The position numbers and the translations under genes were made by a program. Shown here one piece after another: positions 1 to 21,327 of a DNA stretch of 27,463 nt. Below the pieces are notes generated by a model. It had not been told where the DNA came from and did not search any database. It saw nothing but the letters and a program-made list of their open reading frames with translations. Position 1 is the stretch's first letter. Each line of letters opens with the position of its first letter. Source of the DNA: a virus; IMG/VR virus record IMGVR_UViG_3300021057_000031, positions 1 through 27,463 of that record. One strand, given 5' to 3'.

Positions 1-34
1 TGATCGTGTTGGTGAGCTTATAAACGAGAAACAT
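1..34 (-). CDS. Intron-encoded GIY-YIG homing endonuclease, N-terminal fragment
   Basis: Only 11 codons fit in the window: MFLVYKLTNTI from ATG at 34. A start of the form xxVYKLTN is typical of GIY-YIG nucleases, where the first beta strand carries the YK[IV]TN segment before the YIG motif. The ORF begins just after the P6 strand of the intron core, the same general position as I-TevI in the T4 td intron (P6 loop). The identification rests on few residues plus the intron context, so it is probable but not certain. A complete gene would be expected to run left for roughly 150-250 codons. Confidence 0.6.
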   Translation of the reverse strand, partial: MFLVYKLTNTI

Positions 35-150
35 GACTTCCGAACTTGGTTGCTGATTGTCCCGCGAATTTTATCCTTTCGCCTCGGGAGTTCCCAGCAA
101 TTAGATGGGTTTTACACGCAAAATCTCTTTTGCGCGGCCCTATGGAATTA
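1..150 (-). ncRNA. Group I intron, 5' portion (runs off the left edge)
   Basis: Read on the minus strand. The exon end GGCCT (155-151) plus U150 pairs with AGGGCC (141-136), giving a P1 helix with the U-G wobble (151/140) that defines a group I 5' splice site. P2 is CGCAAAA-GAGA-TTTTGCG (134-117) with a GNRA tetraloop. The conserved core follows: AATTGCTGGGAA (102-91) and AATCAGCAACCAAG (58-45) form P4 (TGCTG/CAGCA) and lead into P6, and CCCG/CGGG forms P5. This closely resembles the J3/4-P4 and P4'-P6 signatures of phage introns such as td and Twort. P7, P9 and the 3' splice site must lie beyond the window. Structure is seen directly; splicing is inferred. Confidence 0.88.
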
Positions 151-187
151 AGGCCTTGGGGTGGGCGCCAGAAGTGATAACTGTCAT
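151..187 (-). CDS. Major capsid protein, exon 1 (interrupted by a group I intron)
   Basis: ATG at 187 follows a strong SD (GGGAGGG, 201-195), directly after the stop of the upstream head gene. Exon 1 encodes MTVITSGAHPKA plus the first base of the next codon, which ends at the predicted splice site. Many phage major capsid proteins begin with a short segment ending HPKALWPG (recollection of the family); a split Leu codon T|TG or T|TA would restore that here. Read straight through, the frame stops after three more codons (TAG at 142-140), so unspliced RNA cannot make the protein. Position after scaffold and a head-associated gene also fits the capsid gene. Exon 2 is outside the window. Confidence 0.6.
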
Positions 188-201
188 TTGTGTACCCTCC
201 C

Positions 202-846
202 TTAGATGCCGAGCGAGCCAGAATCGGTAAGCGCGTTACCGGTGTTCTGGGTGTGCAGGTTGATCAGCACTTCGACCTTGGCGTGGGCAAGCGTCGTATC
301 GTTGTCTTCACGATTGACCGCGCGCAGGATGAGGAGCTGGTTGGACGCGTCCGCCGCCGGCACGTCGCTCGTCGTATCGAGTTCGGCGCCGGAGAGACCC
401 GTGGTGGTCGAGCCGGTGTGCGTGTAGATGAGCACCGCGTTGAGGCCCATGGAGGCGGCAGGAACGGCGCCGTCGGCCTGGATCTCGAAGACGATGTCGG
501 GATCGTCGCACACGTAGGCGACGCGCTCGGTGGACGCCGGGTTGTGCTTCACCTCTAGGTTCGTCGCCAGCGGCGAAAACCCGACGATGACGCCAGTGAT
601 GAGATCTCCGTCGCCTTCGGCCGCCTTTTCGACCGACGGCAGGGTGCCGACGCCGAACGTGCCACCGCCGGGGACTGAGATCGCCGACGCGTTAGAGCCG
701 CCGGCCACCTTGAGCACCGGATCGCCGATGAACAGCGCCGTCGCATAAGTGGAGGCAATGTAGTAGGGTCGAGCTGCCCCGTTATAGGGCGCACCCGACT
801 TGTGCCGAATGGGGCGAAGCCCAAACGGCGAGTCGATGTTTGGCAT
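202..846 (-). CDS. Phage head-associated structural protein (probable decoration protein)
   Basis: 214 aa. It begins MPNIDSPFGLRPIRH, a start I associate with small structural proteins encoded just upstream of the major capsid gene in many tailed phages. The protein is Gly/Ala/Thr-rich with alternating hydrophobic residues suggesting beta structure, has no signal peptide or membrane segment, and holds repeated turns such as PGGGTFGVG. It lies between the 183-aa head protein and capsid exon 1, with only 14 bases between its TAA and the capsid ATG. I considered it as the capsid protein itself, but the better capsid candidate starts downstream. A role as decoration or cement protein is inferred from position. 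Confidence 0.55.
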   Translation of the reverse strand: MPNIDSPFGLRPIRHKSGAPYNGAARPYYIASTYATALFIGDPVLKVAGGSNASAISVPGGGTFGVGTLPSVEKAAEGDGDLITGVIVGFSPLATNLEVKHNPASTERVAYVCDDPDIVFEIQADGAVPAASMGLNAVLIYTHTGSTTTGLSGAELDTTSDVPAADASNQLLILRAVNREDNDTTLAHAKVEVLINLHTQNTGNALTDSGSLGI

Positions 847-2555: not shown

Positions 2556-2966
2556 CTAGGCCAGCACCGCACAAACGTCCTTGTCGTTCATGATGATGTA
2601 CTCGACGCGGTCCTTGCCCTTCAGCTTCATCCCCGAATACTTCGAATAGACGATGCGATCGCCGACCTTGGGCGGGGCAAAGCCTGCCGGCCATTTCTCG
2701 TAGGAAAAGGCCAGCGGCGAGACGGCGACGATGGTGCCCTCGGTGGCGGCGTTCTGCAGCTTCTCGGCTTCCGAAATGGGGATGATGATGCCGCCCTTGG
2801 TGACCGTCTCGATCTCCTCGGGGCGGACGACGACCTTGAACTCGGTCGGGTAGATGCCGGAGGTGTTGGCTGGTGTCACCTTCTTGGCCTTCTTGCTGCG
2901 CTTGGCTTTAGGCTTGACGGCGGCGAGCGACGCGCTCGACCCGTTGCTCAGATGGGATTCCTGCAT
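2556..2966 (-). CDS. GroES-like co-chaperonin (Cpn10)
   Basis: 136 aa. A basic, Lys/Ala-rich extension (residues 1-35) precedes a Cpn10-like domain. Recognisable Cpn10 elements are VVVRPEEIETVTKGGIIIP (about residues 45-63), VGDRIVYSKYSG with the glycine-bearing strand, and a C-terminal YIIMNDKDVCAVL strand. It would cap the host GroEL to fold the capsid protein, as gp31 does in T4. The N-terminal extension is unusual, since standard GroES is about 95 aa. The start overlaps the upstream gene by 59 bases. Family assignment is confident; the substrate is inferred from its place among head genes. Confidence 0.85.
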   Translation of the reverse strand: MQESHLSNGSSASLAAVKPKAKRSKKAKKVTPANTSGIYPTEFKVVVRPEEIETVTKGGIIIPISEAEKLQNAATEGTIVAVSPLAFSYEKWPAGFAPPKVGDRIVYSKYSGMKLKGKDRVEYIIMNDKDVCAVLA

Positions 2967-3350: not shown

Positions 3351-4265
3351 CGCACTTGGCGCAGATAGTTCTCGACCGGTGATCCAGCCGCTTCCCCGAG
3401 CCACCCATAGCGGCGGAGAATATCGATATCGGACTTTGTACCATGCGAACTTCGTTCCGCGCTCACCCGCGGTCCAGCCTTCTGCGTTCTGTACGGCGTG
3501 CTGCAATTCATGCGCGGCCACAGAGCGCTGCGCCGCATTGGTTGGACCGAGCGCGTCTACATACGACAACCCGTCTTCGTCGGGCCATCCGTAGACGCCA
3601 GACTTCTCCGGCCAAAAGCCCACCTTCGTGTCCATGTTGGCGGCGGCTTCGGGGTAGGCCGCAGCAAACTCAGGATGCGAAATCGGCCCTGCGGCGGACA
3701 CGCCCTCACCTTCGCCGCGTCTGACGGCTAGGTTCTTGTCATCGATTTCAAAGCGCCACTTGCCGTCTTTGCCCTGAAACCACCCCGTCTCATTCCAAAT
3801 TTGCTCACGCGGCGCGCCTTTGGCGGCGAGGTCTTCGGCTTTAGCGAGTGCGGCGTGATCTGCCGTCTTGGCGAGTCTTCCTCCAAACATCCCGACCGAT
3901 CCGGCTGGACGCGGCACAGCAATACCGCCTGACATCACCAGCCCCGCCAACACAGCATCTTGCGGCTGTGGGGCTTCTCCCCGGCGGAAGCGGGCAAAGG
4001 CTTCTCTTGCGTCGATGAGCGTTTGCGGCACCGCCAGTCCAGGTCCATCCGGCCAGTTGGCGATGGGCATTTGCGAGCCGCGGTCGCGGGCTTCAGTACC
4101 GGAAAGCTCGTTGCGGACGCCCCGCGCCACCTCGTGACCGAGGAACGAAACCGGCGACGCGACAGCGCGGGCGCCGGCAAGCAAATTCTTGGGGGTGATC
4201 CCGAGCGCCTCCGCCTCGCGGGCGAGTTGGGCCGTGAAGGCCTCAAACGAGAGCGGTTCGGCCAT
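3312..4265 (-). CDS. Truncated HELQH metallopeptidase-like protein (polyvalent-protein domain)
   Basis: 317 aa. Residues 1-120 are helical and rich in Ala/Gly. The second half contains WNETGWFQGKDGKWRFEIDD and then HELQHAVQNAEGW near residue 250, an HExxH-type zinc-binding helix seen in domains of large phage and plasmid polyvalent proteins. The expected sequence after this motif is missing: the last 13 residues are encoded by a TTGACG element that also provides the stop. A frame change is suspected near 3450: the alternative frame after AWYK reads SDIDILRRYGWLGEAAG with better codon use and stops at the TGA of TTGACG. It overlaps the portal start by 23 bases. It may be a decaying or frameshifted gene. 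Confidence 0.6.
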   Translation of the reverse strand: MAEPLSFEAFTAQLAREAEALGITPKNLLAGARAVASPVSFLGHEVARGVRNELSGTEARDRGSQMPIANWPDGPGLAVPQTLIDAREAFARFRRGEAPQPQDAVLAGLVMSGGIAVPRPAGSVGMFGGRLAKTADHAALAKAEDLAAKGAPREQIWNETGWFQGKDGKWRFEIDDKNLAVRRGEGEGVSAAGPISHPEFAAAYPEAAANMDTKVGFWPEKSGVYGWPDEDGLSYVDALGPTNAAQRSVAAHELQHAVQNAEGWTAGERGTKFAWYKVRYRYSPPLWVARGSGWITGRELSAPSALTARNTVASPIA

Positions 4266-6675: not shown

Positions 6676-8214
6676 CTAATACCCCGTCACGGATGACCGC
6701 GTATGCCGGGAGATGGCGTCCTCGCCGTCCTCCTCGTCTTCCAGCGGCTTTTGCGGGAACGGCAGGCCGGCAGGGTAGAGGTCAAACATCCGCGATAGGC
6801 TGTCCATCATGTCGTCGTGCAGCCCGACCGGGAACGCCTTGAACTCTTCCTCGGTAAAGGCACGCACCAGATCGACGACATTGCCCTCGTAGTCGGTACG
6901 GTGCAGGTGGTTCGGCAGGTAGACGCGCCCCTGCTCATAGTAGGGCACCAGCCGCTTGATGCGATCCAGCTTCGGCATCTGGCCGCCGAGCTCGGTGATG
7001 TGGAACCGGTAGTTCACGCGTTCCATCTCGTGGCGCATGAACTCCACGTCGGCCATCATGCCGTACTTCTCATAGCCCACCGCCAGCGGCATCCACTTGC
7101 GGTGGAGTGCGAACAGCGTCTGCGCCCGCTGGCTTAAGTTGAGCCGGTCGCGGACCATGTCGAGGGCGTAGATGTTCTGGTCTTCGTTGAACCCCAACAC
7201 CCACATGGACGTGTAGTCGGAAGTCTTCTTCTTCTCGCTCGCCGAGTCGACGAGGATGCAGACGTTGACGCCCTCACGCCGCGTATGCCCGTAGTGCCGC
7301 AACCACTCGGTCTTGAAGCCTTGCGTCTCATCCGCTTTTGGGTTGAGCAACATCTGGGCGCCGAACGTGTAAGGACCCATCTCCCGGCGCTTGTCGGCAA
7401 GGCGCTGCGCATCGAGGAACACGGGCGGGCCAGTCGGCGTGCCGTCCGACGTGGCTGGGTAGATGCGCGGGCGGGCGGCACCGCGATCCAACAGGGTGCG
7501 GTAGGTGTCGTTGAAGTGGTAGCGGGTGCCGATGTAGCGCGTCGCGCCGCCGGCCGATGTCAGGTTGCGGGACAGCTCCCAGGCTTCCGTCACCTTACCG
7601 ATCATGTCGGGGGTGGTGACGCTCTCACGGGTCACGACGTCGTCGTAGACGCACAGCTTGAAATGCTTCGAGGTCGGCTGGCCGTCAACGAGACCCCAGG
7701 CCTCGATGGTCGACTCTTTCGGGTTGCCTTGCCGCTTGACGACAATGCCTTCGTCTTCCGACCACTTGGGGGCCTCCTTGCGCGGGTCGGCCCACAGCAC
7801 GTCCGGAAACCACTCTTTCAGCAGGTCGTTGCGCTCGAACTCGGACTTGATCTGCCGCAAGAACCCTTTGGCGATGGGGCGGGTGTGCGAAAAGATGCCG
7901 ACCGTCAAATCCGGGTTGTTGAGGATGTCCTGGATCGTCAGTGCGAAGGTGATGATCGTCGACTTGTAGTGCTCACGTGCCCACAGATCGAGATGCCCGT
8001 TGGGGCTTCCCTGCACCTCGCGGCAGCGCTCGAACACCCAATCATTGTCGGCGTCGGCGCGCTTCAGCCCGTAGACGAGCAGGAAGAAGAGATCAGTGCG
8101 GCAGAGATTTCGCACCCGGGCGAGCCGGTCCGGCTCCGAGCAGCTCTGCAAGCCACTCAGCACTCGCTGATACTGGCTCCGCTGAGTGATGATGCTGATG
8201 ATTGATTGTGCCAT
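6676..8214 (-). CDS. Terminase large subunit (TerL)
   Basis: 512 aa, normal length. It packages DNA as an ATPase-nuclease docked on the portal. The ATPase domain has a Walker A-like WAREHYKST (residues 78-86) and Walker B KLCVYDDVV (about 186-194). The nuclease domain has the acidic residues in CILVDSASEKKK (about 320) and GLHDDMMDSL near the C-terminus, which fit an RNase H-fold metal site. GTRYHFNDTY is a further typical TerL segment between the two. The start overlaps TerS by 122 bases, which is long; a later start was not favoured because the first segment is needed to reach the usual N-terminal length. Confidence 0.9.
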   Translation of the reverse strand: MAQSIISIITQRSQYQRVLSGLQSCSEPDRLARVRNLCRTDLFFLLVYGLKRADADNDWVFERCREVQGSPNGHLDLWAREHYKSTIITFALTIQDILNNPDLTVGIFSHTRPIAKGFLRQIKSEFERNDLLKEWFPDVLWADPRKEAPKWSEDEGIVVKRQGNPKESTIEAWGLVDGQPTSKHFKLCVYDDVVTRESVTTPDMIGKVTEAWELSRNLTSAGGATRYIGTRYHFNDTYRTLLDRGAARPRIYPATSDGTPTGPPVFLDAQRLADKRREMGPYTFGAQMLLNPKADETQGFKTEWLRHYGHTRREGVNVCILVDSASEKKKTSDYTSMWVLGFNEDQNIYALDMVRDRLNLSQRAQTLFALHRKWMPLAVGYEKYGMMADVEFMRHEMERVNYRFHITELGGQMPKLDRIKRLVPYYEQGRVYLPNHLHRTDYEGNVVDLVRAFTEEEFKAFPVGLHDDMMDSLSRMFDLYPAGLPFPQKPLEDEEDGEDAISRHTRSSVTGY

Positions 8215-8728
8215 CGATCTTCTGTGGGAACATGCCTAGGTGTCTGCCGAGATCGACGAGGGCGCTGCGCTTGTCGGAGAGCTTGAACTTGGTGCGCTTC
8301 ACCGTCTTGGCGTCGTCGCCCTTGCCTTCGAGATAGGTCTCGGACGTCACCTCACCGATGGCGGCCGCTTGGTCGCGCGTGAGCTTCGAGAGATCAACGA
8401 AGGCGTCCCCCTCCTGCACGCTGATGTAGTCCAGCATGTTGGAAAAGCCGATCAGCGCTAGCTCGCGGACGATCTTGTCGATGGTGATTTCGTGCCGTTT
8501 GGCAATGGCATCGCGCAGAGCATCGACCCTTACCTGCACCTTACCGTTGGCCAGCATGGTGCTGGCCTTGACGTGGACAGCTTCTGGCTTCCACTTCTCC
8601 GAGCCTGGGTAGGCCCTGCGGTAGGCTTCACTGGCGTTGCTGGTTTCGATGTACGCCCGGACGAATGCTTCCTGCTTGGGGGTCAGTTTTGCCTCGTCGG
8701 ATGGCTTGGCGTTTCTTGCCCGTGCCAT
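8093..8728 (-). CDS. Terminase small subunit (TerS)
   Basis: 211 aa, Terminase_2-like. It recognises phage DNA and loads TerL. The N-terminus LTPKQEAFVRAYIETSNASE followed by AYRRAYPGS is the classic opening of this family, with a helix-turn-helix at residues 15-60 and VHVKASTMLANGKVQVRV continuing it. A central helical oligomerisation region follows, then a His-rich, flexible C-terminus (HQHHHS). The last 122 bases are shared with the start of TerL in another frame. Confidence 0.88.
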   Translation of the reverse strand: MARARNAKPSDEAKLTPKQEAFVRAYIETSNASEAYRRAYPGSEKWKPEAVHVKASTMLANGKVQVRVDALRDAIAKRHEITIDKIVRELALIGFSNMLDYISVQEGDAFVDLSKLTRDQAAAIGEVTSETYLEGKGDDAKTVKRTKFKLSDKRSALVDLGRHLGMFPQKIDGTINHQHHHSAEPVSASAEWLAELLGAGPARPGAKSLPH

Positions 8729-15240: not shown

Positions 15241-15539
15241 GGGGTGTCCTCCACCGGCACCCACCGCACCCGAAACGCCTTATGGCTTTGCTTGCAGGGG
15301 ATCATGGCCCGCGTCACCAGGCCTTTGCCCTCCAGCCGGCGCATCACGTCATAGGCACAGAAGGTCGACGACCAGCCGAAGTGCGCGGTGAGCTCCTTGG
15401 CGGTCGGGAATTTCCCCTGCGCTGCGGCCAGCTTGAGGAAGGCGAGCACCGCCGCCTGCGTCGGGGCCGTGAGCATTGAGCGACGCGAGGGGATCGGCCG
15501 CTCGGAGCCGGGGATATGGACGAAGGTGCGGGCCGGCAT
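15237..15539 (-). CDS. Winged-helix DNA-binding protein (LexA-N/MarR-like)
   Basis: 100 aa. LTAPTQAAVLAFLKLAAAQG then FPTAKELTAHFGWSSTFCAY and DVMRRLEGKGLVTRA form helix - helix-turn-helix - wing, as in LexA DNA-binding domains and phage wHTH regulators. The second half is short and basic, with no LexA peptidase domain. Start 15539 overlaps the upstream stop (TAATG). Likely a small transcription regulator; target unknown. A second LexA-N-like protein is at 24128-24445. Confidence 0.6.
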   Translation of the reverse strand: MPARTFVHIPGSERPIPSRRSMLTAPTQAAVLAFLKLAAAQGKFPTAKELTAHFGWSSTFCAYDVMRRLEGKGLVTRAMIPCKQSHKAFRVRWVPVEDTP

Positions 15540-16030
15540 TATTCGACCCTCGCAAATTCGCCGTGATACTCACGGGCCGCAGCGACATAGGCCGCTTGCG
15601 CTTCTTCAATCGTGTCGTATTGGCCGACGTTGATCCGCTTCCCGTGGACCCCGACGTAGGCTCTGAATTTTCCGTTCTCGCGGCGATTGACGCCCCTTAC
15701 CCCTGTCTTGCTGTTCTTCTGGACAGGCTTGTTGCTGGTGTTCTGACTGCGCGTCGCGGGACGCAAGTTGTCGAAGCGGTTGTTCAGCTTGTTGAGGTCG
15801 CGGTGGTCGAGTTCATGCTCCGGCCAGTTGCCTGTAACGTACAGCCAAGCGAGCCGATGCTCTCGGTGCGCCTTGCTATCGATCTCTATGACTCGGTAAC
15901 CCCTCGAATTGACCGTCCCGGCCCGCTTGCCTTTCATTCTGTTATTGCCGCGATCGTCGATCCAATGGAACTCGCCCGTCGTCGCGTCGTATGCGAGCAG
16001 TTCTTTCAGGCGCTCTACCGTCAGAGTCAT
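15539..16030 (-). CDS. HNH endonuclease with AP2-like DNA-binding domain
   Basis: 163 aa. ELLAYDATTGEFHWIDDRGN then GTVNSRGYRVIEIDSKAHRE and HRLAWLYVTGNWPEHELDHR followed by DLNKLNNRFDNLRPAT: the HNH_3 motif, with catalytic His in ELDHRD and the N-R-DNL helix. The C-terminal KTGVRGVNRRENGKFRAYVG part is an AP2-like DNA-binding domain. This is the classic free-standing phage homing endonuclease. ATG 16030 overlaps the upstream stop (ATGA). It is one of four homing-type nuclease genes or fragments in the window. Confidence 0.88.
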   Translation of the reverse strand: MTLTVERLKELLAYDATTGEFHWIDDRGNNRMKGKRAGTVNSRGYRVIEIDSKAHREHRLAWLYVTGNWPEHELDHRDLNKLNNRFDNLRPATRSQNTSNKPVQKNSKTGVRGVNRRENGKFRAYVGVHGKRINVGQYDTIEEAQAAYVAAAREYHGEFARVE

Positions 16031-16527
16031 TTCTTCGCGACTCCTTCGCTGAACTCGGCCTTGCAGGGTCGCGCCCACACCTCGCAGCGATAGAAAACCT
16101 GGCCTGCCACTTCGCCAATGGACGTGCGCCCGCAGCGCTTGCGGAAGTCGAGGGCGTGCGTCATGTCGACGAAGATTTCGCCGTGGTCGTAGCGTGTCCG
16201 CTCACGCCAATCCTTTACGGCGGCATCGAGTGCCCCCTCTTCGTTCAGCCACTGCGTGCCAACGCCGCGCACCGGACCTCGACAACCGTCGTACTCATCG
16301 TCCATCGACCGGTAGAGCCGCACGGTTTCGCGGTCGTAGCGCGGCTCGCGGCGTACATGGCGACGGACGCGGCGGGCCCGACGTGGCTGCTGATAGCCAC
16401 CGTGCTCATAGATCGGATGCACGTACTCGCCGGCGCGCGCTGGCGCGGCGCTCACAGAGATGGCAACAAACCCCAACGCCAGCGAGGCGGCGATGAGAGC
16501 CCAAAGGGCGATTTCACGCTTGGTCAT
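16027..16527 (-). CDS. Exported protein with signal peptide, unknown function
   Basis: 166 aa. MTKREIALWALIAASLALGF then SVSAAPARAGEY: a Sec-type signal with probable cleavage after ARA. The mature part has a basic RRARRVRRHVRREP stretch, then two Cys (CRGPVRG and KRCGRTS) and VFYRCEVWARPC near the end, so disulfides in the periplasm are likely. It overlaps the neighbouring genes by 4 bases each. No lysis or spanin motif seen. An envelope-directed phage protein of unknown role. Confidence 0.6.
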   Translation of the reverse strand: MTKREIALWALIAASLALGFVAISVSAAPARAGEYVHPIYEHGGYQQPRRARRVRRHVRREPRYDRETVRLYRSMDDEYDGCRGPVRGVGTQWLNEEGALDAAVKDWRERTRYDHGEIFVDMTHALDFRKRCGRTSIGEVAGQVFYRCEVWARPCKAEFSEGVAKK

Positions 16528-17680: not shown

Positions 17681-18619
17681 CTAGATCCTGTGGCCCTTGG
17701 TGATGTAGCGGTTTGATTTGCGTCGGTTCTCGTCTGCGGGCATGAGCTGGAGGTTCCACGGCACGTTCAGCCCCCACGCCGATGCGCCGCGCAGCGGGAC
17801 AATGTGATCGACTGTCATCCCCGCGCGCTTGGCTTCATTCCTAATCAGGTCCATCTCAAATACCTGATAGTCAGCAAGCCACGCTGGGGTTGCCCGCTCT
17901 TCCGCGGATCGTCTGCGTCTTGCGTACTCGGTCGATGATTTGCGGACTCTGTCGTGCAGTTTGACCGGGACGGTCACCGCGTCTTCTTCACTCCACCCGT
18001 ATCCCAGTCGACTGCGGATCGTCTTGGCGCTAATGCCAACTTCACCCTCCCACTGCGAGGGCGTAAGCGTGCGCCCCATCGCCGTGATGAGGCGGCTTCG
18101 GCTCGTGTTGTTAGCCTGCTCTTCCCACGTGGCCCAGCGGCAGTTGTCCGGCTCATAATTCGCGTTGCGATCTCGGCGCTCAACAGTGTGTCTGGGCGTC
18201 GGTCGCGGGCCCATGTCCGCGTAGAAGTTCTCGAATGCGGCCCACCGCTCGCAAAGCTTGATGCCGCGCCCACCGTAGTGATCAAAGTCCTTGCGCTTCG
18301 GGTTCGTGCAACGCGTCTTTATTGTTGACCAAATCCTGTACTCTGCGGTGCGAGCCGCGCCCGCGCGCCCGTGCCCGTGCCGAAGATTGCAGGTCTTCCG
18401 AGTGTCTCTGTGCAAGCAGCCACAACTCTTGGTCCACCCGCCCGTGAGCTTGGATTTCTCTAGGCGTGTCTGAAGTCCGCAATCGCACTGGCACAGCCAA
18501 AAGAGCCGCAGGTGTCCTTTTCTCCCCACTGGCCGCCGCTCGACGGGCCCGACCACGACGAGGCGGCTGAAGCGCCGCCCCGTCAGGTTTTCTGCACTCT
18601 TGTGTAGAGTGAGAAACAT
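17681..18619 (-). CDS. HNH-type homing endonuclease, two-domain
   Basis: 312 aa. N-terminal: TGRRFSRLVVVGP then FWLCQCDCGLQT and LTGGWTKSCGCLHRDT, a zinc-binding-like CxCxC/CGC module. Middle: YRIWSTIKTRCTNP...YGGRGIKLCERW...FENFYADMGPRP...NYEPDNCRWAT, a domain common in phage HNH-associated proteins. An HTH-like GISAKTIRSRLGYGWSEEDA follows. C-terminal: MTVDHIVPLRGASAWGLNVP then WNLQLMPADENRRKSN, a true HNH motif (DHIVPL, N-L, N-R-R). The protein at 20593-21327 is its paralog without this last domain. Confidence 0.82.
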   Translation of the reverse strand: MFLTLHKSAENLTGRRFSRLVVVGPVERRPVGRKGHLRLFWLCQCDCGLQTRLEKSKLTGGWTKSCGCLHRDTRKTCNLRHGHGRAGAARTAEYRIWSTIKTRCTNPKRKDFDHYGGRGIKLCERWAAFENFYADMGPRPTPRHTVERRDRNANYEPDNCRWATWEEQANNTSRSRLITAMGRTLTPSQWEGEVGISAKTIRSRLGYGWSEEDAVTVPVKLHDRVRKSSTEYARRRRSAEERATPAWLADYQVFEMDLIRNEAKRAGMTVDHIVPLRGASAWGLNVPWNLQLMPADENRRKSNRYITKGHRI

Positions 18620-19827
18620 CAGAACCTCACCCGCGCGCCGCCCATGAAGGCGTCGAGTTCGTCGTCGGAGCCGCTGTCGAACGTGTAACGCCGCCAGTCC
18701 ACATACACGTCAAGCGCGGCGCTCTCGAAGTTCTGCACCACGCCGAGACCGATGACGCGCGGCGTCCCGGAGAAGCCGTCGATCTTGAGTTCGCCGAACT
18801 CACCGAAGACCGTCGTCTTGCCGACCGGCAGCCACTTCTCCTCGACACCGGCTTGGAACTGCCAGCCGTCGATCTGCGGCAGGAAGGTCAACACACCGTC
18901 GCCCTCAAAGCGGCCCGCGGCGCCTGTCAGGAAGACGCCGGTGGGCATGTGCATGACCGAGGCCGAGCCGGCGTAGACGATGACGTCTTCAGTGGCGCCA
19001 ATCGTCGGCACGACAAGGCCCTGCCGGTAGGCGGCACCGGCGACGACGCGGAACTGCCCCCACTCCTTGGCGTAGCGCAGGGCGACATCCCAGACGCTGC
19101 CGTTGGAGGTGAGGTCGGCGTTGCTCCACGAGGCCGACAGCACGAAGCCTTCGAGCACCGGACTGTCATAGCGCACCAAGTCCGTGCGGGTGCCGTCGAA
19201 AATGTCGAGCGCATCGCCGAGCGACGGCCCGATGAACGGACGCAGCGACAACATGCGGACGGCGGAATCGGTGTTCGCTGTCGACATCTCGACGATGCCG
19301 TCGCTCGCTTGCGAGGCGAGACCGACGCTCAGCTTACCGACCTTGGCGTTCTCGATGTAGAGGTAGGAGCGGCGCGTGTAGATGCCGTTCGTGTCCCCAC
19401 CAAACAGCGGGCCGTAGCCGATGCCGTTGAAGAGACTGTCGTCGTATCCGCCTACGCCGATCTCGAGAACGTAGCCGGCTTTGGTGTCGGGTGTGATGCG
19501 CGCCTCGCCCTTGAAGCCAATGCCGCTTTCGGCGGCCGAGTTCTCGGTGACGACCGTATTGCTCTCGCCGTCGGCGCGCCAATGCAACAGCGTCTTGTTG
19601 ATCTGACCGTAGACGGTGAGAGACAGTTTGCGGTTTCCCTTGCGGGCCACCGTCGCTTCCAACTCAGCGACTCGCTCTTCCAAGTCGGCGCAACAATCGC
19701 CGCCGATGGTTTTGACGCCGGTATCGGCCGCGTAGGCCTTACCGACGAACGCCAACGCAACGATCACCAGCAGGACGGCAACGAGTGTGCCGACCTTAGT
19801 TCGCAAGAAAGCTTTGAGTGCGGACAT
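18619..19827 (-). CDS. Outer-membrane porin (16-strand-type, phage-encoded)
   Basis: 402 aa. Signal peptide MSALKAFLRTKVGTLVAVLL ... GKAYA-AD, a short coiled segment with CCADLEERVAELEATVARK (periplasmic trimerisation-like), then beta strands of alternating hydrophobicity starting SLTVYGQINKTLLHW. The typical porin line SGIGFKGEARITPDTKAGYV is present, and the chain ends in Phe (MGGARVRF), the signal read by the BAM complex. It resembles alphaproteobacterial porins. SD AGGGGG before ATG 19827. It is an intact host-type gene among phage genes; such genes in other phages can alter the host receptor surface (known for lambdoid phage PA-2). Confidence 0.85.
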   Translation of the reverse strand: MSALKAFLRTKVGTLVAVLLVIVALAFVGKAYAADTGVKTIGGDCCADLEERVAELEATVARKGNRKLSLTVYGQINKTLLHWRADGESNTVVTENSAAESGIGFKGEARITPDTKAGYVLEIGVGGYDDSLFNGIGYGPLFGGDTNGIYTRRSYLYIENAKVGKLSVGLASQASDGIVEMSTANTDSAVRMLSLRPFIGPSLGDALDIFDGTRTDLVRYDSPVLEGFVLSASWSNADLTSNGSVWDVALRYAKEWGQFRVVAGAAYRQGLVVPTIGATEDVIVYAGSASVMHMPTGVFLTGAAGRFEGDGVLTFLPQIDGWQFQAGVEEKWLPVGKTTVFGEFGELKIDGFSGTPRVIGLGVVQNFESAALDVYVDWRRYTFDSGSDDELDAFMGGARVRF

Positions 19828-20238: not shown

Positions 20239-20600
20239 GCTCTTGCCTCCTTCAGTTGAAGCTTGCTCGTGCAGCGGCGGGGCCGTTTTCGCGTCACCTT
20301 CGCGGGCGCCGGATACATGGCGTTGCGGTAGGCTTCTCTCGCGCACTTTCGCGCCTCGGCTAGGCTCTCACCCCGCGCAATCGCGGCCTTCCGTGCGCCA
20401 AGGCATGCGAGTTGCGCCTTGGCGTGCCGCGATCCGGGAATGGCCAGCGTGCGGCGGCGGCGCGTTTCTTCATCCGGCGCGGACGCGCGAGAGAGCACCG
20501 AGCGCAGGTAGTGCGGCTTGCAGCCGGTGTGGCGCATGATTTCCTCGCGCGAGAATTTCTGCGCGTGCAGGTCGAGAATGCGGGCGGCGAGGCTAGGCAT
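20235..20600 (-). CDS. Basic HTH-like protein, 121 aa
   Basis: MPSLAARILDLHAQKFSREE then IMRHTGCKPHYLRSVLSRAS, an N-terminal helix-turn-helix, then RRRTLAIPGSRHAKAQLACL and a very basic C-terminal half. It overlaps the 3' end of the HNH-paralog gene by 8 bases. Probably nucleic-acid binding; possibly an accessory of the adjacent HNH-like gene. Exact family unknown. Confidence 0.5.
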   Translation of the reverse strand: MPSLAARILDLHAQKFSREEIMRHTGCKPHYLRSVLSRASAPDEETRRRRTLAIPGSRHAKAQLACLGARKAAIARGESLAEARKCAREAYRNAMYPAPAKVTRKRPRRCTSKLQLKEARA

Positions 20601-21327
20601 CGACCACCTCCCGCTTGGTAGCCCCTGACAGGGTGCGCCGACGGAATGCCATGGACTGACGTGGGGCGGTGTCGTGGAGTATTTCTCGCCCTTTCTTCAG
20701 CACTGGCGTGGACAGCGCCTCCTCAACGCTCCACCCGCGGCAAAGCCTCTCGCGCACCGTTGAGCGGCCGATCGCATACTCGCGGCACCACTCGTCGATG
20801 TGCTTGGTTTTCCCGAACGCAGTGAACGTCGCTGTGATGATCTTGTTGGAACTCTGCTCAGCATGCGTCGCCCACCGACAGTTTGTCGGCTCGTAGTCGC
20901 CGGCTGGGTCTGGATACCGATCAAGCGTATGGCGGCGCGACGGTCGCTCGCCCATGTCGGCGAGGAAGTTTTCGAAACTGTCGCGCCAGCGCTCGCAAAC
21001 TGTGATGCCAGCGCCGCCATAGCGGTGCCAGTCCTTGTTTTTGCGTCTGCGGCAGCGACTCCTCATCGCTGTCCACGACGCGTAAGTCAGGCTCCCTGAG
21101 TGCCCGTGCTTGGTGATTTTGTTGTCGCGGCGGCAGCGGTTCTCTTGGTTGAGGCACCCACAAGACTTGGTCAGCCCCAACCGCAAGTTGGTTCCATTGA
21201 TTTCCGTGCGCTTACCGCATTGACATTCGCACAGCCAATACAAGGCGGCGCAGTTGCGCTTCGGGGCGGGGCCGACGACAGTCAGGCGCCCATAGACGCG
21301 GCCGCGCATATCGATGGCTTTACCCAT
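20593..21327 (-). CDS. HNH-associated protein, paralog of 17681-18619, lacking the terminal HNH
   Basis: 244 aa. The same modules as 17681-18619 appear in the same order: GRVYGRLTVVGP, YWLCECQCGKRT, LGLTKSCGCLNQEN, YGGAGITVCERW, FENFLADMGERP and YEPTNCRWATHAEQ, then an HTH-like YAIGRSTVRERLCRGWSVEE. It ends without the DHIVPL...N-R motif. The Cys pairs are kept, so DNA binding may persist. Either a nuclease using the middle domain or a catalytically dead relic or binding protein. The two copies show duplication within the genome. Confidence 0.7.
   Translation of the reverse strand: MGKAIDMRGRVYGRLTVVGPAPKRNCAALYWLCECQCGKRTEINGTNLRLGLTKSCGCLNQENRCRRDNKITKHGHSGSLTYASWTAMRSRCRRRKNKDWHRYGGAGITVCERWRDSFENFLADMGERPSRRHTLDRYPDPAGDYEPTNCRWATHAEQSSNKIITATFTAFGKTKHIDEWCREYAIGRSTVRERLCRGWSVEEALSTPVLKKGREILHDTAPRQSMAFRRRTLSGATKREVVDA

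Follow-up and report, generated by a model that had tools for sequence, protein, structure and literature searches.

Is the capsid gene at the left end of an environmental phage genome interrupted, after only 12 codons, by a mobile group I intron? The locus belongs to the IMG/VR virus record IMGVR_UViG_3300021057_000031, and the window analysed here is this entire viral record of 27,463 bases, which has no end repeats and no left flank. Our comparisons make it very probable that positions 1-150 (minus strand) belong to a mobile, self-splicing group I intron similar to that of the T4 td gene, of which they form the 5' half, and that this intron interrupts codon 13 (phase 1) of a gene for an HK97-fold major capsid protein. 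This assignment draws on a partial match to the Rfam group I model RF00028, on two covariance models (R1 and R2) and on alignment to a related phage, IMGVR_UViG_3300038550_000002 (hereafter L014). Since the record ends inside the putative intron, the search for P7, P9 and exon 2 was made on relatives.

Exon 1 and the 5' half of the intron

The gene at 202-846 (minus strand) ends and is followed by AGGGAGGGTACACAA and then by an ATG at 187, which opens exon 1 of the gene for the major capsid protein (151-187, minus strand), with a Shine-Dalgarno-like GGGAGG close to its 5' side. Exon 1 has 37 nt and reads MTVITSGAHPKA plus T151, the first base of a Leu codon; its product is identical to residues 1-12 of an intact homologue (L002). 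The insertion point thus lies in phase 1 of Leu codon 13 of the motif HPKA/L, where the slash marks the junction. When the message is left unspliced, the 12 codons of exon 1 are followed by TTA-ATT-CCA-TAG.

The RNA beyond this point contains the helices expected of a group I core. P1 (136-155, minus strand) pairs GGCCUUA (155-149; exon GGCCU and intron UA) with UAGGGCC (142-136), which places a U151·G140 pair at the splice site and the in-frame TAG (142-140) inside the helix; P10 might form between its loop, CCAUA, and exon 2. The P2 hairpin (116-135, minus strand; 135-128/123-116) is closed by a GAGA tetraloop of the GNRA type. Alignment to L014 identifies CCCAUC (104-109, minus strand) as the 5' strand of P3, whose partner would fall to the left of the record. 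In the P4-P5 core (50-100, minus strand), P4 (100-95/55-50) and P5 (89-85/64-60) are accompanied by conserved joining segments, and P6 is only partially present. P1, P2, P4 and P5 together make up the minimum-energy fold of positions 165-42 (z -2.6; 3 of 200 shuffled sequences were equally good). The preliminary description of this DNA had listed a P1 with a splice-site U-G pair, a P2 with a GNRA loop, an early stop codon if splicing fails and a P4-P6 core; all were recovered, except that in the core only P4 and P5 are seen paired and P6 is visible in part.

That description had also proposed a search with RF00028, which gave a weak score for positions 160-1 of the window (24 bits, E 0.027) because the intron is truncated. 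R1 and R2, trained on ten and eight other phage introns, respectively, were run over 785 kb and recognized the window with E-values of 5.7e-11 and 1.6e-11, values that are not fully independent and somewhat flattering because the training introns had been chosen by a 19-nt core motif also found in the window. In this search, good scores were limited to the window and L014.

A complete intron at the same site in a related phage

In L014, an intron of 876 nt (1282-2157, from TAATCTG to CACG) splits the capsid gene at this same codon and in this same phase; RF00028 matches it as complete over 1272-2104 (44 bits, E 7.2e-9). Its P1 likewise has a U·G pair at the 5' splice site, and the helices from P1 to P9.2 pair, including P3 (CCAUC with GGUGG), P7, P7.1, P7.2, P8, P9, P9.1 and P9.2. 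The P3/P7/P8 domain and a 3' splice site after a terminal G (CACG/TG), which in the window lie beyond the record, are therefore present in L014. The P7 strands, GAUCA/UGAUC, differ from the phage-intron consensus GACUA/UAGUC by two compensatory pairs. Rfam places P7 beside the endonuclease start, a position that we rejected since the strands there do not pair; GAUCAU (2005) pairs with AUGAUC (2077) instead.

Joining the exons as T/TG TGG GAA GGC gives L-W-E-G and restores the frame. The P7 and P9 helices, the 3' splice site and the exon 2 completing a Leu codon ahead of Trp, all called for in the preliminary description, are found in L014. The predicted spliced product of 300 aa (MAVITSGNHPKALWEGIREWWGREYKK...) aligns over its full length with intact capsids and shows 72% identity over 291 aa to that of L003. 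As in the window, an in-frame stop follows soon after the splice site. Between the guide sequence in the P1 loop of the window and an exon 2 start encoding Leu-Trp, 5 to 7 pairs of P10 are possible; if they form, exon 2 of the window phage, which lies beyond the record, should begin with TRTGG.

The two sequences align at the junction, in P1, in P3-P5 and at the start of the endonuclease frame. In P2, pairing is kept while five of the eight pairs are altered on both sides; at the endonuclease start, nine of ten residues are identical and six of the seven codon differences, over ten codons, are synonymous. Such covariation and synonymous change are the pattern left by a functional RNA and a functional protein, and the comparison with L014 is the strongest sequence support for the presumed intron of the window.

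These results bear on two other explanations. Misjoins are commonest at the extreme ends of metagenomic contigs, where this feature lies, and an unrelated intron might have been joined to a capsid start during assembly. However, L014 is independent and has the same junction in homologous yet clearly different sequence, so that an identical misjoin would be needed in both contigs, and in each of them the P1 helix spans the junction; an artefact is scarcely conceivable. A decayed or splicing-defective remnant, with the capsid gene either broken here or present as a second copy outside the record, could be imagined because the 3' half is out of view and the record is fragmentary and lacks end repeats. 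We consider this highly improbable: every visible helix pairs, even the fast-diverging P2; the endonuclease codons have changed mostly synonymously relative to L014; exon 1, the ribosome-binding site and their spacing are intact; and no second capsid gene, whose presence the preliminary description had named as evidence against its proposal, occurs in the 27 kb of the window.

Several points weigh against a functional intron of this type. The window lacks the 3' strand of P3, P7, P8, P9, the 3' splice site, exon 2 and most of the endonuclease; with these 3' parts outside the record, the half-intron is completed only by analogy with one relative. The RF00028 score of L014 is itself slightly below the curated threshold of 50, an effect probably due to the large insert, and the intron was found in only two phages, that of the window and L014. 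The proposal of a group I intron interrupting the gene after 12 codons is nevertheless supported by the helices, the minimum-energy fold, the covariance models and, for its position, by exon 1 and by the identical codon and phase in L014.

The interrupted gene probably encodes the major capsid protein

The identification of the interrupted gene, only presumed in the preliminary description to encode the major capsid protein, is supported by several lines of evidence. Exon 2 of L014 matches the Pfam families Phage_capsid_4 and Mu-like gpT and a PHROG major head protein, and several homologues are annotated as major capsid protein. The structure predicted for the intact L002 homologue (mean pLDDT 82) has an HK97 fold, and a Foldseek search with this model returned the capsids of phiXacJX1 (E 1.1e-12) and HK97 (E 5.8e-12). 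Sequence and model together thus support an HK97-fold major capsid protein as the predicted product. The upstream neighbour at 202-846 (minus strand; phrog_37556) lies directly 5' of the capsid gene in relatives, and podovirus MW202785 has the same order of terminase, portal, GroES, two genes, the 202-846 homologue and the major capsid protein.

The head module of the window also contains a gene for a GroES-like co-chaperonin (2556-2966, minus strand; Cpn10, E 1.5e-16), as do most related contigs and MW202785; its product may assist capsid folding.

An endonuclease frame starts within the intron

A frame beginning MFLVYKLTNTI (1-34, minus strand) starts at 34 in the P6 region, where the preliminary description had placed it, and is open at the end of the record, leaving 11 residues visible. 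Its homologue in L014 (83% over 12 aa at the start) is a GIY-YIG endonuclease of 233 aa, encoded by a frame at 1396-2097 with a GIY-YIG domain (Pfam PF01541, E 1.1e-9) and a sequence match to I-TevI (PDB 1mk0, E 2.4e-5). When the L014 protein is aligned to I-TevI, the catalytic Arg and Glu of the GIY-YIG family are present, a comparison that applies to L014 alone. Through these matching first residues, L014 supports the assignment of the window frame to a GIY-YIG homing endonuclease. A weak similarity of the L014 endonuclease to a chain of PDB 8phq named major capsid protein (E 0.001) was judged incidental.

Distribution of the intron

Among 80 IMG/VR relatives of the upstream gene 202-846, the next gene starts with MxVITxGxHPKALWPG or a variant and is uninterrupted in 79, with about 302 codons on contigs long enough to hold them; the only interrupted one is that of L014. 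The exon 1/intron junction pattern was found in L014 alone among viral contigs and in none of 84,980 species genomes, and model R2 detected nothing beyond L014 at 66 capsid loci of genomes and 80 of viral contigs. A site that is nearly always empty fits a sporadic mobile element. Relatives collected through the terminase (L262-L295) lacked both this capsid and the intron on the stretches fetched, and they gave no means of extending the window to the left.

Some further observations concern the relatives and the remainder of the window. The gene for the terminase large subunit (6676-8728) and the capsid gene seem to have separate histories, which suggests that these modules are mosaic. In MW202785, the annotation splits the large terminase gene into two pieces with 133 bases between them (L296, 2639-4271). 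Named isolates with related capsids are mostly Alphaproteobacteria (Gluconacetobacter, Bradyrhizobium, Sphingobium, Leisingera and Phenylobacterium; L116-L181), which hints at an alphaproteobacterial host for the window phage. Phenylobacterium sp. J367 (L140, ~3870-4000) has a second capsid copy whose first ~20 codons are out of frame, which may reflect an assembly error. Group I introns are clustered in two phage contigs, with five in L104 (969-3800) and two in L112 (6577-7298). The window also carries a Gram-negative porin-like gene (18619-19827, minus strand; Porin_4, E 4e-14), and MW202785 likewise has, close to its terminase, a gene annotated as an outer membrane channel. Finally, three genes for HNH-type endonucleases (15539-16078, 17681-18619 and 20593-21327, minus strand), one with an AP2 domain, suggest that, in addition to the intron, the genome holds several possible mobile elements.

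Comparison with known phage introns

The T4 td intron with I-TevI has a similar core, but it interrupts thymidylate synthase instead of a capsid gene. In T4, I-TevI drives homing, and its frame overlaps the 3' core (PMC2988022), as does the endonuclease frame of L014.

The preliminary description had regarded a capsid gene as an unusual intron site, a rarity that is weakened by three precedents. In Lactococcus phage Tuc2009 (NC_002703, orf37/orf38/orf39), a group I intron splits the major head protein gene. As in L014, an endonuclease frame lies between the 5' and 3' halves of the core, the same model matches, and the 3' cores share 73% identity over 89 nt; however, the Tuc2009 endonuclease is of the HNH and not the GIY-YIG type, exon 1 has ~56 codons instead of 12, and the head protein gene is one of Lactococcus phage. 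In mycobacteriophage LittleE, a probable group I intron lies in the major capsid gene, and its splicing during infection was demonstrated by RT-PCR (reverse-transcriptase PCR) and N-terminal sequencing (PMC3706429); in this intron of ~819 bp, however, the frame is LAGLIDADG-like and runs on the opposite strand, and host and site are unrelated. Delta and Zeta crAss-like phages, known as metagenomic genomes, also have major capsid protein genes split by group I introns (PMC7886860); these are gut phages with up to several introns per gene and no indication of the HPKA/L site, whereas the window phage falls in another group, one that is podovirus-like. Introns in capsid genes are therefore already known, and what is new here is the insertion site, the capsid family and the GIY-YIG partner.

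Proposed mechanism and implications

In the model that we propose, ribosomes on the unspliced message would stop at the stop codon in P1, three codons beyond exon 1; as this stop lies within P1, the folded core would be left undisturbed by translation. The intron would excise itself by two transesterifications initiated by guanosine, joining GCC-U/UG-UGG and restoring the capsid frame. The endonuclease would be made from the P6 loop and, during co-infection, would cut capsid genes that lack the intron, close to the conserved HPKALW site, after which repair of the cut gene would copy the intron in.

Insertion at only 12 codons in a highly expressed late gene, with a stop codon shortly past the splice site in both phages, might suggest that the intron has been co-opted for capsid control, its synthesis being delayed or tuned by how efficiently splicing proceeds or by the short peptide that ends at the stop. 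We find this quite unlikely: nearly all relatives do without the intron, which is thus not needed, and early in-frame stops are common in phage introns. A combined scheme, in which slow splicing delays or limits capsid production while the intron cuts the capsid gene of intron-less co-infecting relatives and so gives its carrier an advantage, also appears unlikely. The mobile intron is most likely a passenger of the phage, either neutral or slightly costly to it.

The phage capsid genes with group I introns form a short list, to which the finding adds a new insertion site and a new capsid family. The family concerned is widespread in environmental phages and alphaproteobacterial prophages, and capsid genes interrupted in this way would be missed or truncated in automatic annotation and in marker-gene surveys.
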